From a virus, in the IMG/VR virus record IMGVR_UViG_3300042987_001336, positions 1 through 32,593 of that record: 32,593 bases of DNA; one strand, written 5' to 3'. Both the position numbers and the translations under genes were made by a program. The notes beneath the pieces were generated by a model. The model was not told the DNA's origin. It saw nothing but the letters and a program-made list of their open reading frames with translations, and made no database searches. Below are positions 2,089-6,476 of this stretch, one piece after another. Each line of letters starts with the position of its first letter. The stretch's first letter is position 1.

Positions 2089-2334
2089 ATGGCTAAAAAA
2101 GACAACGAACTAACTCAAATCGCGCGCGCTGCGTATGATGGTGGAGCCGCTAGTTACTTGGCAACGTCGGCAGCATGGTACGCGCATCATCTTGGCGTGC
2201 ATCTGTACGTTACCGGGCGCGCTGCGCCGACGGACGTGCGTATGTCACGCGGTAGCAAAATACGCTCAGGTGATCTGGTGTTCGAGCATGTCGGCACGTG
2301 CGATGGAAGGCAGCAATTCCAGCGTATTGCTTGA
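2089..2334 (+). CDS. Unrecognised 81-residue early protein
   Basis: The product is MAKKDNELTQ and onward, 81 residues, soluble, mildly basic, with no membrane segment or cysteine motif. The ATG at 2089 has a good ribosome site, AGGAG at 2075-2079. It is the first gene after the early promoter P1, and its stop codon lies inside the -35 box of a second promoter serving the next gene. No family is recognised. The C-terminal half (from about residue 50, SRGSKIRSGDLVFEHVG) has short beta-like stretches. Its leading position and small size would suit a takeover or anti-host function, but nothing in the protein shows it. Confidence 0.75.
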   Translation: MAKKDNELTQIARAAYDGGAASYLATSAAWYAHHLGVHLYVTGRAAPTDVRMSRGSKIRSGDLVFEHVGTCDGRQQFQRIA

Positions 2335-2359
2335 TCCATGTAAGAGAATGTTTTACACT
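2331..2359 (+). promoter_or_regulatory. Rightward early promoter P2, a homologous copy of P1
   Basis: TTGATC (2331-2336), 17 bases, then TACACT (2354-2359). Apart from the hexamers, the spacer shares ATG, AA and AGAAT in register with P1 at 2017-2045. This makes duplication more likely than chance. The expected start near 2366 lies about 27 bases ahead of the next gene. Confidence 0.7.
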
Positions 2360-2392
2360 ATCCAATTCAATCCAATACAGGAGACACATCAA

Positions 2393-2878
2393 ATGAACAG
2401 AGAAGAAGCAATGCATCAGATACATCAGGAAAACGTATTGATGGCGCTTGGATTTACCCGTGCGGAATCCGATGCGCTGCGCCGTATATCAATGACGCTA
2501 CGCCGATGGTTTGAGCGAGAGTGCAACGGCGAAATACAGCGCGGCGATGATGGCATTGCGCGCGGATACCGCGTAAACGCGCGTTTTCTTGATCCGAACG
2601 ATCCGCGCTACTGGTACCGGGTAGCAGACCGCGAAACCGGCGCACGTAAGAGACTGGCGGCTATTGTGGAAAGGCGCAACGCTAGAATCACAGACGATAG
2701 CAGCAAGGATGCGGAATTAAACATTCACGCTACATGCGCGGCGAAGCTTGCCGGTATCGTATCCGCCTATGTACAACGTGATCCGCGCGGCGCTGCGCTG
2801 TATATCCTGCGCCCCGGCGATGTACCGCCCGGCGCTGATGCGAGCGCACATTATAACCGTGGAATTTGCGTTTATTAA
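2393..2878 (+). CDS. Conserved-looking phage hypothetical protein, 161 residues
   Basis: The ATG at 2393 follows a ribosome site (CAGGAGA) and the P2 promoter. The longer frame starting at 2135 overlaps the preceding gene and is rejected. The protein begins MNREEAMHQIHQ, with a helical N-terminal part around the string LRRISMTLRRWFEREC (residues about 27-42). It then has a basic middle with an RYWYRVADRETGARKRL segment, and ends with the hydrophobic RGICVY. Many Arg and acidic residues suggest a soluble, possibly nucleic-acid-binding protein. No catalytic motif or known domain is recognised. It is second in the rightward small-gene cluster. Confidence 0.75.
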   Translation: MNREEAMHQIHQENVLMALGFTRAESDALRRISMTLRRWFERECNGEIQRGDDGIARGYRVNARFLDPNDPRYWYRVADRETGARKRLAAIVERRNARITDDSSKDAELNIHATCAAKLAGIVSAYVQRDPRGAALYILRPGDVPPGADASAHYNRGICVY

Positions 2879-2950
2879 CGCATGACGTATCTATTTGCGC
2901 CCCTGTGGGCGCAGTAGGATGCGCCAAGCATCACAATCAAATAAAGGAGC
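2879..2950 (+). promoter_or_regulatory. Structured intercistronic leader, copy 1
   Basis: The element opens with CGCATGACGTATC. A seven-pair hairpin follows (TGCGCCC at 2896-2902 with GGGCGCA at 2907-2913, loop CTGT). Next comes a five-pair hairpin GATGC-GCCAA-GCATC (2918-2932), and the element ends with ACAATC, AATAAAGGAGCA and the ATG at 2959. The same layout recurs before the next gene with nearly identical flanks but a different stem sequence. No U-run follows the stems, so an RNA processing or translation-control element is likelier than a terminator. Confidence 0.65.
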
Positions 2951-2958
2951 ATACAATT

Positions 2959-3390
2959 ATGGCAAAATTATCTGCACACGGGCGCGAAGTAGGTACGATT
3001 CACTTTTTGACTAAAGCCAAGCGTTACATGAGTGACGGCGTAGTTCTGAAAAACATCGGCTTTGGATGGAAAATTGCCGGGAAAATTAAGGACGGCATTA
3101 CGCCAGAACAGGCATTTAACAATGCATCCGCGCGCGCGCGCGAATACCGTGCCGATCGTCCGGCGTATGCCGCATACCGCGCGGAATTGCATAACATGGC
3201 CGGGTTATCCAAGCGATGGAAACTTCACGCGGCTATCGAATTGATGCCCGGCGACGCCGACGGCGTATGGAGCGAGTGTTGTGACGGATATGGAGATAAT
3301 ATACATGCCGACATCAACGAAGTCTCGCGCTTGTGCGAACTATACAAGGCATCATTACGCGAGCAGCAAGCGCAGCAAGCGCACGCATGA
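2959..3390 (+). CDS. Unrecognised 143-residue early protein
   Basis: The ATG at 2959 sits ten bases after a strong AAGGAG site. The upstream extension to 2866 would translate the structured leader and is rejected. The product begins MAKLSAHGREVG and is basic and Ala-rich in the centre. An acidic, cysteine-containing stretch (WSECCDGYGDN, about residues 101-111) is followed by a helical tail rich in Gln and Ala. No known domain is recognised. The two cysteines are adjacent and do not form a clear zinc motif. It sits between two copies of a structured leader, so its expression is probably set together with the gene that follows. Confidence 0.75.
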   Translation: MAKLSAHGREVGTIHFLTKAKRYMSDGVVLKNIGFGWKIAGKIKDGITPEQAFNNASARAREYRADRPAYAAYRAELHNMAGLSKRWKLHAAIELMPGDADGVWSECCDGYGDNIHADINEVSRLCELYKASLREQQAQQAHA

Positions 3391-3457
3391 CGTATCCCAT
3401 AGGGCAGTACGCTGCCCTATAAGATGCGCCAAGCATCACAATCCAATAAAGGAGCAA
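3384..3457 (+). promoter_or_regulatory. Structured intercistronic leader, copy 2
   Basis: The opening CGCATGACGTATC contains the stop codon of the preceding gene. A nine-pair stem follows (ATAGGGCAG at 3399-3407 with CTGCCCTAT at 3412-3420), closed by TACG, a UNCG-type tetraloop. The GATGC-GCCAA-GCATC hairpin (3423-3437) and ACAATC, AATAAAGGAGCA lead to the ATG at 3462. Flanks match copy 1 at 33 of 34 positions over the second hairpin and ribosome site, while the first stem differs in sequence but is kept in structure. Confidence 0.65.
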
Positions 3458-3461
3458 TCAA

Positions 3462-3929
3462 ATGGAAGCTAATTTTACTTTTGCAAGTTTTCAGTGGCCG
3501 CGTTTCGTTGTTCGCATGGCTTGCGGGCCTGCGGCACTTCGCAAGAAATGGGCGGGGCGCAAGTTTTGCGGCGAGTATTATCACGCGCCACGTCCTGAGA
3601 ATGCGGGTACCGGGCGAAGTTTTTACCTCAATTCTGATGGCCAGCCGTTTACCCGTTGGCAGTGGTGCGACGAAGTGCCGGATGTACGCATCAAACATAT
3701 TGGATGGTTTGTTGACGAATACGGCGACGGAGACACAATACGGGGCATTGTTGTAGCGTTACCTCATGGCCGGTTTTTGGCCGGATGGTCTATGGGCGAA
3801 GGTATGGCGTCAATCATTGACGCGGATTTGTACGAGTCCGCCAAAGACGCGGCATATGCCGCCGATTCTATGGCCGAAAGCGCTGCGGAGCGCGAACGGG
3901 AATACCAATCCCAGCAAACGGAGGTTTGA
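3462..3929 (+). CDS. Unrecognised 155-residue early protein
   Basis: The product starts MEANFTFASFQWPRF. It is rich in aromatic residues over its first 90 positions (repeated Trp, Phe and Tyr), suggesting a compact globular fold. It has a middle that reads IGWFVDEYGDGDTIRGIVV, and ends in an acidic helix with AERERE. Three cysteines are scattered, and no metal motif or membrane segment is seen. The ATG follows the second structured leader and its GGAG site. The gene is followed after two bases by a small membrane protein gene. No family is recognised. The pattern G(R)FLAGWSMGEGMAS may be a useful signature for searches. Confidence 0.75.
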   Translation: MEANFTFASFQWPRFVVRMACGPAALRKKWAGRKFCGEYYHAPRPENAGTGRSFYLNSDGQPFTRWQWCDEVPDVRIKHIGWFVDEYGDGDTIRGIVVALPHGRFLAGWSMGEGMASIIDADLYESAKDAAYAADSMAESAAEREREYQSQQTEV

Positions 3930-3931
3930 CC

Positions 3932-4084
3932 ATGAACCTATACTATCGCCGCGCCAACAACGGGCGCATTACCACCACCACAATTGCGCCGCGCGAGCCG
4001 GTCAACGTACTTCGTTTGGCAGGCGCGGCTATATCGTCATTCATCGGCCTGTACGCTTTCCTCGTGCTGGTGCTGTCATTATGA
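3932..4084 (+). CDS. Small single-pass membrane protein, 50 residues
   Basis: The ATG at 3932 follows GGAGG at 3920-3924. The first 28 residues are polar and basic (MNLYYRRANN and on). Residues about 29-50 form a hydrophobic segment ending FLVLVLSL, long enough to cross a membrane. With the basic part first, an N-in orientation is predicted. Its stop overlaps the start of a second tiny hydrophobic gene in the arrangement ATGA. The pair may act together at the host inner membrane, but no family is recognised. Confidence 0.6.
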   Translation: MNLYYRRANNGRITTTTIAPREPVNVLRLAGAAISSFIGLYAFLVLVLSL

Positions 4085-4143
4085 TACTCGTACTCGTGGC
4101 GTTATTGATAGCACGCCTGATAATCAAACTGTTAGACTTATAA
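4081..4143 (+). CDS. Tiny hydrophobic peptide, 20 residues
   Basis: The start overlaps the stop of the preceding membrane protein gene as ATGA, a sign of translational coupling. The peptide, MILVLVALLI then ARLIIKLLDL, is almost wholly hydrophobic with two spaced basic residues, like an amphipathic or membrane-spanning peptide. It lies just before a terminator. Such peptides can be membrane-active, but it may also be an untranslated tail of the message, so confidence is limited. Confidence 0.4.
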   Translation: MILVLVALLIARLIIKLLDL

Positions 4144-4169
4144 AAAACGCCCCTTAATCGGGGCGTTTT
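4144..4169. terminator. Bidirectional intrinsic terminator between convergent operons
   Basis: A ten-pair stem, AAAACGCCCC (4144-4153) with GGGGCGTTTT (4160-4169), encloses a six-base loop. The rightward RNA ends in a run of four U and the leftward RNA in six. It lies between the end of the rightward small-gene cluster and the stop codon of the primase-helicase gene, so it can end transcripts from both sides. Confidence 0.9.
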
Positions 4170-6476
4170 CTATTTCACCACTGCCATACGCGGCGGCGGC
4201 GGATCGTCTACCATCCTACGCAGTTCAGACCTAGTGCGACCCGCCAACGAAGGCATACAGAATATATGCTTTTTCGTCGGCAGGTCACTGCTGGCAATGC
4301 GCCCCATATCTACCCATCCGGCCTCCCTAAGCGCGTGCAGTAGCGCAGCCTGCGGTATCTTCACGCCAGCGGGCGCGCTACCTGCTACACGGTCGCACAA
4401 TGAATAGAACGGTGAACCGACCACGCCTTTAGCAAACTCGCCTTGACGCGCGCGTATCATGTCCACGAGGTACGATTCCGCCATGCTCATACCGTGTTCG
4501 ACCAAATTGGCCTTGAATTCAGTCCATGCGGGCGCAGCGGAAGGGTTAAACGCTGACACGTCACGGGCGTGCAACCATCCAGCTATTGCTGCGAAGCCGC
4601 CATTACGGTACCAGTTCCATAGTTCGCGCGCCTTGTTCGCGTCCATACGCGGCGCGTGTGACCATACGCAAAACCAACGCCTGTCCTGCGAATCTATCGA
4701 TATCGGCACGGGATCGTTGCTAAACGCCAACACAAAAGCCCTGTTAACCATATCATACGGGTGCAAGCCCTTTCTGTTAATCGGCAGCATTTCAGGGGGC
4801 GCGGCGATGATAGGCTTGAGTTTGTTCGCCAGCGCACGCCTCGCCGCCGCTTCCGGCTCTTTTAGCTCGTTAATAATCAATACCTCGCACTCTAGCTGGT
4901 ATCCCCACTGCGAGCCAAGCGTATCGTTATCCAGTAGCCCACGGTTCTTCAATCCCGGCCCACACACCGCCCATATCAACGGCGCCCACATAGTATCCTT
5001 ACCGCAGCCCTGCTCACCGCCGTGCAAAACGGCGTGATTGATTTTGACCTCGGGGTGCTGCACCTTGTAGGCCATCACGTTGTATAGATGCTCCCGTTCG
5101 CTATCCTCCGGCACCAGCGTAGCGCAATGCGCCAACCACGGCGCCACGTCGCCGCCCGATATGACAGCGGGCCGGGCGTCGCGCCAGCGGTTGCCATAGA
5201 CGTCGCCGTCGCGCGCCACCAGCACCGACTCGCCCGCCGCGTAGGTCACGCCCACCAAGGTGCGCGCGCCGCTAGCCTGCCTATTCTCGTCAAAACACGT
5301 TGACGCCTCGATACGGCGCCCGTTGTGAATGCTGAGACAAGATACGTGTCTAAAAAGCGCGTCAAACGCACTACGCGCGATTTCGCGCCTATCCTGCATG
5401 TCGAAGTAGGCGTTATCTGCCATCACATACGCGAAGCGCTGATGCCAGATAGCCTTTTCCACGCGCCCCAGTTCCCTGCGCTCTACCTCTTCGATTACTT
5501 TCTTCGCGTCGTCCGAAAAAAAATCGGACGGCTCCAGCTTCTCCAGCGTGGCCTGCATGGTGCTGGCGATCAGGTCTTCGCGGAAGCCCGGCTCATGCTT
5601 AGGCCCGCCGTTGTCCGCTACCCATTGCAGGAAGGTCTTGGTGTCGAAGTCGATGCAATGTGAGTGCAGACAGCAATATGACCTCGTGGTGGGCATGTAA
5701 CGCCCCTCCGGATTGCCGTCGGTGTGTTCCTTGTTGTTGGGGCATACCACGCCCGCCCAGCCCTCCGCGTTGGGCTTGGACAGCACCAGCCCCTTGACCA
5801 TCATCCAGCCGAACACATCATCCTTGCCGGTGTCTTGCACGCGTATGGGCTTGTAGCCGCCGCCGCCGTCCGGCTCGCCCGGCGTCACGCCCAGCGCGGT
5901 GCAGATGTCGGGCAGGGTGAACTCGCGGTCGGCGTGAAACTCCACCAGCCGCGCCGCGAAGTTATCCCGGCCCGGTTTCAGATTTATACTGCCCGGCAGT
6001 CGGAAATTTCTCACGGCGTTGGTGGCGCCGGGGTCGGTGTAGCCCGCGTCAGCGATAGCCTTCACCGCCGCCGTAAATTCGTCCTTGGTCGGCTGTTCCT
6101 CGCTGAATGCGTAACCCCACTGAAAGTTACCCGGCGACGTTTCCATTTTCCACGTCGGTTCCAATGGTGGCGTCTTGCTCTTCGTTCCAATATCATCCAG
6201 CACCAGCGCGAGACAGTATTCACAGTTTGCCGCTGCCGCGCTGACCTTGCCGTTCACGAAGCGATCAATAATAAAAGACGCGGTATTGCCGTACCACGCC
6301 TGATCGGACTTGATACGCTTGATATCCGGCAGGTATGCTGGCCAGGTGCATTTAACCGCCCCGTCGGGGTGAAACTGCATCTGGCCATCTTTTAACTGCG
6401 GCTTCTGCCTGACAAGCAACGCCGTTTCGCCCTCGGGCGCCAATGACTGCAAGAACTCCAGAAAATTACTTACCAT
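4170..6476 (-). CDS. Replicative primase-helicase (RepB-like primase plus SF3-type ATPase)
   Basis: This 768-residue protein probably primes and unwinds DNA at the phage fork. The N-terminal third resembles RepB/AEP-type primases: LVLDDIG (about 91-97) supplies the metal-binding acids, and FRLPGSIN (about 158-165) matches the Arg-Pro-Gly-Asn strand of that fold. A Cys/His cluster (C245, H251, C268, C269, H271, C274) may bind zinc. The C-terminal half has a Walker A loop GGEQGCGKD (about 486-494), an acidic Walker B-like strand VLIINELKE (about 532-540), a FSND sensor strand (about 585-588) and DRR (about 598-600), as in DUF5906 and virulence-E-like helicases. It starts within the last codons of the polymerase gene, so the two are probably translated together. 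Confidence 0.9.
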   Translation of the reverse strand: MVSNFLEFLQSLAPEGETALLVRQKPQLKDGQMQFHPDGAVKCTWPAYLPDIKRIKSDQAWYGNTASFIIDRFVNGKVSAAAANCEYCLALVLDDIGTKSKTPPLEPTWKMETSPGNFQWGYAFSEEQPTKDEFTAAVKAIADAGYTDPGATNAVRNFRLPGSINLKPGRDNFAARLVEFHADREFTLPDICTALGVTPGEPDGGGGYKPIRVQDTGKDDVFGWMMVKGLVLSKPNAEGWAGVVCPNNKEHTDGNPEGRYMPTTRSYCCLHSHCIDFDTKTFLQWVADNGGPKHEPGFREDLIASTMQATLEKLEPSDFFSDDAKKVIEEVERRELGRVEKAIWHQRFAYVMADNAYFDMQDRREIARSAFDALFRHVSCLSIHNGRRIEASTCFDENRQASGARTLVGVTYAAGESVLVARDGDVYGNRWRDARPAVISGGDVAPWLAHCATLVPEDSEREHLYNVMAYKVQHPEVKINHAVLHGGEQGCGKDTMWAPLIWAVCGPGLKNRGLLDNDTLGSQWGYQLECEVLIINELKEPEAAARRALANKLKPIIAAPPEMLPINRKGLHPYDMVNRAFVLAFSNDPVPISIDSQDRRWFCVWSHAPRMDANKARELWNWYRNGGFAAIAGWLHARDVSAFNPSAAPAWTEFKANLVEHGMSMAESYLVDMIRARQGEFAKGVVGSPFYSLCDRVAGSAPAGVKIPQAALLHALREAGWVDMGRIASSDLPTKKHIFCMPSLAGRTRSELRRMVDDPPPPRMAVVK

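Follow-up and report, generated by a model that had tools for sequence, protein, structure and literature searches.

Two intercistronic leaders in the early region of a viral record (32,593 bases, possibly a fragment; this whole stretch is referred to as the window) carry a predicted long irregular hairpin on the sense strand that comprises about two helical turns with conserved mismatches and is situated between early genes, ahead of the next Shine-Dalgarno (SD) sequence. The fold recurs, with differing sequences, in about 45 further intercistronic leaders in early operons of related phages. We regard these leaders as a new RNA family of phage early operons that is supported by covariation and lies outside Rfam, and in which one gene junction keeps its fold while the sequence is replaced.

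Duplicated leaders between early genes

The early genes of the window are small and lie on the same strand with stop-to-start gaps of 74-83 nt, and their cotranscription is presumed. The genes flanking the leaders and the sequence elements of the leaders are:

2393..2878, + strand: upstream early gene, an ORF of 161 aa with stop codon TAA at 2876-2878, preceding leader 1
2895..2914, + strand: variable apical hairpin of leader 1
2933..2958, + strand: A-rich single-stranded spacer of leader 1 with the SD AGGAG at 2945-2949, assigned by sequence, composition and predicted accessibility
2959..3390, + strand: middle early gene, 143 aa, no assigned function, stop codon TGA at 3388-3390, between leaders 1 and 2
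3399..3420, + strand: variable apical hairpin of leader 2
3438..3461, + strand: A-rich spacer of leader 2 with the SD AGGAG at 3450-3454
3462..3929, + strand: downstream early gene, 155 aa, phrog_33651 (E 3e-56), no assigned function, following leader 2

The duplication of the leader claimed in the first-pass annotation was confirmed, the copies extending over positions 2878-2956 and 3383-3461. The sequence ACGCATGACGTATC is common to both (2878-2891 and 3383-3396, 100% identity), as is a 42-nt block consisting of GATGCGCCAAGCATC, the spacer and the SD (2915-2956 and 3420-3461, 90% identity), and for both segments the offset between the copies is exactly 505 nt. Since the variable intervals are equally long (26 nt), the two copies align without gaps. 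Exact matches of GATGCGCCAAGCATC in the window are limited to these two. The variable stems had been described as seven pairs with a CUGU loop and nine pairs with a UACG loop, respectively; in agreement with this description, copy 1 reads TGCGCCC-CTGT-GGGCGCA (7 bp, or 8 bp with one U-G pair) and copy 2 reads ATAGGGCAG-TACG-CTGCCCTAT (9 bp).

PHROG and Pfam searches with gene 2393-2878 yielded no match, and it was assigned to no family; a protein resembling its product (C-terminal SRGICVY) is found behind a leader-like element of contig L326. The stop codon of this gene occupies the position at which other leaders of the family carry the stop codon that opens the 5′ arm. Homologues of gene 2959-3390 are likewise preceded by a leader in L306, L323, L330 and L333, and in many phages they have a leader behind them. 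The phrog_33651 gene at 3462-3929 is common to the Casjensviridae phages AH2, Nazgul and A18P4, and the terminase encoded in the window is a relative of epsilon15-type terminases. With a gene shared with Casjensviridae beside an epsilon15-like terminase, the early region is an apparent mosaic.

Several other sequence elements were observed in this region. A promoter-like TTGACG-17-TACACT is located ahead of the first early gene at 2017-2045 and a similar TTGATC...TTACACT ahead of the second, and early genes 3 and 4, those with hairpin leaders, are without such a site. Five imperfect 23-nt direct repeats of the AGTGAGCACACACTAAC type together with inverted copies at 1547-1659, ahead of the early genes, look like iterons or operator sites; they are also present in L060, a contig of a sister phage. 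Repeats of GGCAATCTAGGCAAT are found at 1667-1785 upstream of the early operon, and L145 carries related TTGGCAAT-type repeats at the equivalent place. Moreover, AGGAGCATACAATYATGGCWAAA occurs at 2075-2097 and 2945-2967 (91% alike) at the starts of two unrelated genes, so that the SD/start context is duplicated as well. Between convergent genes, a symmetric AAAACGCCCC-TTAATC-GGGGCGTTTT hairpin at 4144-4169 is probably a two-way terminator.

Predicted fold and its recurrence in related phages

All RNA folds given here are computational predictions. The first-pass annotation had pictured two hairpins per leader, the second one being GATGC-GCCAA-GCATC. This sequence is indeed present in both leaders; however, each leader folds predominantly as a single long hairpin of 23 layers, in which CGCATGACGTATC is paired with GATGCGCCAAGC and encloses the variable stem. 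The second hairpin is built from the 3′ strand of the long hairpin, and the two folds therefore cannot coexist.

2880..2929, + strand: long irregular hairpin of leader 1 (2 bp, A.A, 2 bp, A.C, 7 bp, 2x2 loop, 8 bp, CUGU; 23 layers; RNAfold MFE -27.2, z -3.36)
3385..3434, + strand: long irregular hairpin of leader 2 (2 bp, A.A, 2 bp, A.C, 6 bp, 2x2 loop, 9 bp, UACG; 23 layers; RNAfold MFE -27.0, z -5.23)
2918..2932, + strand: alternative hairpin GATGC-GCCAA-GCATC of leader 1 (exact repeat; forms in the isolated 3′ fragment to 2962)
3423..3437, + strand: alternative hairpin GATGC-GCCAA-GCATC of leader 2 (exact repeat; P 1.0 in the 3′ fragment)

In both copies, the bottom of the long hairpin consists of GC, an A.A mismatch, UG/CA and an A.C mismatch, and in leader 2 the hairpin overlaps the stop codon of the upstream gene (3388-3390). 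Compared with dinucleotide shuffles, the folding energy of the structured cores corresponds to z values of -3.4 (copy 1) and -5.2 (copy 2). The probability of the second hairpin in the predicted ensemble of the full-length leaders is about 0-0.02, and according to these folds it can form only once the long hairpin has been opened or cut. Of the translation switch suggested in the first-pass annotation, a form that masks the ribosome site is unlikely: almost all leaders leave the SD region largely unpaired in their predicted ensembles.

Other assignments were considered and rejected. A Rho-independent terminator does not fit, as a T-run is absent after either hairpin and neither is listed by the terminator scan, and the promoter scan did not support a promoter at the leaders beyond chance. 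Stimulation of readthrough or frameshifting was discarded, since the stop-to-start frame varies among leaders and in-frame stops are common. A strict pseudoknot is possible, yet for most leaders the long hairpin prevails in the predicted ensemble.

For the comparison with other phages, loci were gathered by primase, terminase and two early proteins, and leaders were recognised by the apical stem, the small hairpin and SD/ATG, the lower stem being left out of the search. Leaders of the family begin with a 5′ arm opening with the upstream stop codon, followed by a short linker, the apical stem, the small hairpin, an A/C-rich spacer (42% A), the SD and the AUG. Their recurring fold comprises the lower stem, a mismatch-2 bp-mismatch motif and the apical stem. 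In most leaders the 5′ arm starts with the stop codon itself, and the apical stem typically follows this codon at a distance of 8-10 nt; in copy 1 of the window the stop codon lies slightly further upstream than this norm. The loop of the small hairpin is complementary to the 5′ arm across the family. Within one genome the copies usually share the arm and the small hairpin with a varying apical stem, as in the window, and the shared part differs from phage to phage. Many of the leaders precede homologues of the same genes, and their sequence types differ there. A clamp-like gene stands behind 15 leaders (L060 and 14 others), and several small genes are also found behind leaders.

The contig L060, whose terminase segment is 100% identical to that of the window, contains a third copy, one only, before the clamp-like gene, and the genes surrounding it differ from those in the window. 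When positions 6235-7800 of L060 are compared with 2089-4145 of the window, the backbone flanks are alike, the genes between them differ, and the leader is located at the junction of the swapped segment. When viral contigs were searched for exact matches to GATGCGCCAAGCATC, 118 stretches were returned, nearly all of them chance matches, with only L060 and L092/L099 being leader-like. The search with the window-type core revealed L060 as the sole real leader, the four other matches being without its hairpins and leader context. A type-specific (type-I) leader pattern matched 14 viral stretches and had no match in bacterial genomes. In the divergent phage L092, a leader with an identical small hairpin (3258-3313, minus strand) follows a stop codon and precedes a clamp-like gene; its apical stem and second hairpin are kept, and its lower stem does not form and pairs differently.

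The covariance model R1 scores 39 and 31 bits at the two copies in the window, which belong to its training set. It finds no leader in the Casjensviridae AH2, Nazgul, A18P4 and pAEv1812, which share gene 3462-3929, or in DSL-LC05 and two Manatee Spring phages. Model R2, trained without window-type sequences, gave no match above noise at either copy in the window or in L060. The family membership of the window copies thus rests on architecture, length and gene position and not on a sequence-structure score. Together with L060, they show the mismatch-2 bp-mismatch motif and 21-26 layers between an upstream stop codon and a downstream SD; in these three the motif lies five layers further out than in most members. 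The earlier statement that no known riboswitch or leader is recognised is in keeping with Rfam release 15, which returned no match at the gathering score in the window and in 10 leader-bearing loci.

As the apical stem and the second hairpin served as search criteria, their pairing counts are inflated. Homologues with an unpaired first stem, named beforehand as the case that would speak against a selected structure, did not appear, the apical stem pairing in every leader; this carries little weight, since the stem guided the search. The lower stem, which was outside the search criteria, provides the stronger test, and covariation is seen there in the compared sequences. Among 43 non-redundant leaders, the pairing between 5′ arm and loop amounts to 10.67 versus 7.06 ± 0.59 after permutation, with 0 of 2000 permutations as high. 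The central two linker bases are paired with the opposite strand in 16 of 16 distinct cases, and the mismatches flanking these two pairs are kept in 14 of 16 (0 of 20,000 permutations). Likewise, 91% of 44 distinct leaders have 21-26 helical layers, compared with 30% when the flanks are shuffled and the apical stem is kept, and the 1x1-2bp-1x1 motif is present in 23 of the 44 versus 1.4% with shuffled flanks. The total helix length is nearly constant while the position of the mismatches shifts among leaders.

In an alignment of 31 sequences, 84.2% of the cells of the long hairpin are paired, versus 60.5% in shuffled and 33-47% in slid controls, with two-sided changes at 20 of its 23 pairs; for the small hairpin, the value is 78.7% versus 60.8%. 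RNAalifold, run unaided, returns the long hairpin with compensation at 19 of 19 pairs. Both of the mutually exclusive predicted folds therefore show covariation in this comparison. In addition, G-U cells exceed A-C cells (82 versus 16), indicating that the sense RNA folds and is selected, and not a DNA palindrome. Taken together, these results support the earlier proposal of a selected RNA structure: pairing is kept despite base changes, and this extends to the leaders found elsewhere.

The same G-U excess speaks against a DNA-level boundary at which early gene cassettes would recombine and to which the RNA structure would be secondary. The window and L060 do share flanks and not the genes between them, with the leader at the junction; however, homologous recombination would need sequence conservation, which is absent between phage types, and we hold this explanation to be very improbable.

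Candidate functions of the leaders

By analogy with T7, we tentatively propose, at somewhat below an even chance, that RNase III-type processing takes place at the leaders, between the genes of a polycistronic early message; a processing site was among the functions suggested in the first-pass annotation. Host RNase III would cleave each hairpin on its 3′ side, at the internal loop beneath the apical stem, and the T7 geometry would place the cuts at about 2917/2918 in leader 1 and about 3422/3423 in leader 2. These predicted positions would coincide exactly with the start of the small second hairpin. The upstream message would have its 3′ end capped by the apical hairpin, and the downstream message would begin with the refolded small hairpin as a 5′ cap before the open A-rich ribosome site. 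Cutting followed by refolding would explain the keeping of two mutually exclusive pairings. The 3′ fragment left by the predicted cut forms the small hairpin at P>0.5 for 46 of the 54 leaders; in leader 1, P is 0.11 when the fragment is extended by 30 nt of coding sequence. On the strength of the T7 geometry and this refolding of the 3′ fragment, we favour processing in which the downstream product caps itself. The low refolding value of leader 1, the failure of R2 to find the window copies and the unfolded lower stem of L092 count against it, as does the fact that irregular hairpins of two turns are also typical of many protein-binding or stability elements.

Hairpins at 3′ ends stabilise mRNA, and the leaders place a strong hairpin directly after stop codons. 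They might accordingly act, in the absence of cleavage, as a passive stability barrier or insulator that stops 3′ exonucleases and shields the next ribosome site from upstream sequence. Such a barrier would have no need for conserved mismatches, a near-constant 23 layers and a covarying lower stem, which makes this function quite doubtful.

A coupling to termination appears similarly improbable. Here, the ribosome ending the upstream gene would cover the 5′ arm and open the long hairpin, the second hairpin would form, and translation of the two genes would be linked. The position of the stop codon at the very beginning of the 5′ arm in most leaders and the two exclusive folds, both with covariation, would suit such a switch. 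On the other hand, neither fold includes the SD, which is largely unpaired in both, leaving no evident output, the stop codon of copy 1 is located a little upstream of the arm, and stop-to-start distance and frame vary.

The leaders could also be operators for a phage-encoded RNA-binding protein that recognises the structure, spreads over the A/C-rich spacer and blocks or helps the ribosome at several early genes, in the way that T4 gp32 acts on its own message. The gene 32 operator has this arrangement of a structure and a subsequent unstructured A-rich SD spacer (PMC535899), and arm, second hairpin and spacer are shared within a genome and differ between phages, as if co-evolving with a phage factor. 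Moreover, the complementarity of the 5′ arm to the loop of the second hairpin would permit a pseudoknot. However, the SSB family (PF00436) was not found in the 32.6 kb of the window, which may be a fragment, and no candidate regulator was found there; nor would a sequence-specific binder obviously need a constant helix length with shifting mismatch position. We consider an operator unlikely. A bistable element at many early gene junctions, alternating between the long hairpin that starts at the upstream stop codon and the small hairpin or pseudoknot, with upstream translation or a phage protein choosing between them and setting the expression of the next gene, is conceivable though rather unlikely.

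Comparison with known systems

The repeated SAS/ESAS elements of cluster K mycobacteriophages are located with a variable spacer before the starts of early non-structural genes, and their consensus varies by phage type (PMC3203893). The leaders resemble them as repeated elements with a variable spacer and type-dependent sequence before early gene starts. For ESAS, that study obtained little evidence of RNA hairpins (PMC3203893), whereas the RNA pairing of the leaders is backed by covariation and strand asymmetry. In the T4/RB69 gene 32 operator, a structured 5′ element, possibly a pseudoknot, precedes a ribosome site that is A-rich and unstructured (PMC535899), and the leaders likewise combine a structured element and a possible pseudoknot with an open A-rich ribosome site. 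In contrast to T4 gene 32, a single autoregulated SSB gene, they precede several unrelated genes, and no SSB family protein was found in the window.

As in the early RNase III sites of T7, the leaders are irregular hairpins of about two turns located between early genes, one per junction, with an internal loop below the upper stem and the next SD and AUG just downstream. When folded alike, T7 R0.3, R0.5, R0.7, R1.1 and R1.3 show about 22-26 layers (for R1.1, 31, or 25 without the outermost 3 bp), and an upper stem of 9-13 bp with the cut immediately on its 3′ side. R1.1 is cleaved at 5887 (PMC8708148). The arrangement 2[1x1]2[1x1]6[2x2]9 in the window resembles 4[1x1]5[2x3]9 of R0.7. The leaders differ from the T7 sites in that there is no sequence match (R1 does not match T7), in having the mismatch-2bp-mismatch motif instead of the asymmetric loop of T7, and in a 5′ arm that includes the upstream stop codon and a 3′ strand that can refold into its own hairpin. 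As their cleavage is predicted only, we do not class them as T7-type processing sites despite the like arrangement. Should they be processing sites, T7-like processing of early messages would also occur in a large phage group that is not related to T7, and would there have the added feature of a cut product able to cap its own 5′ end.
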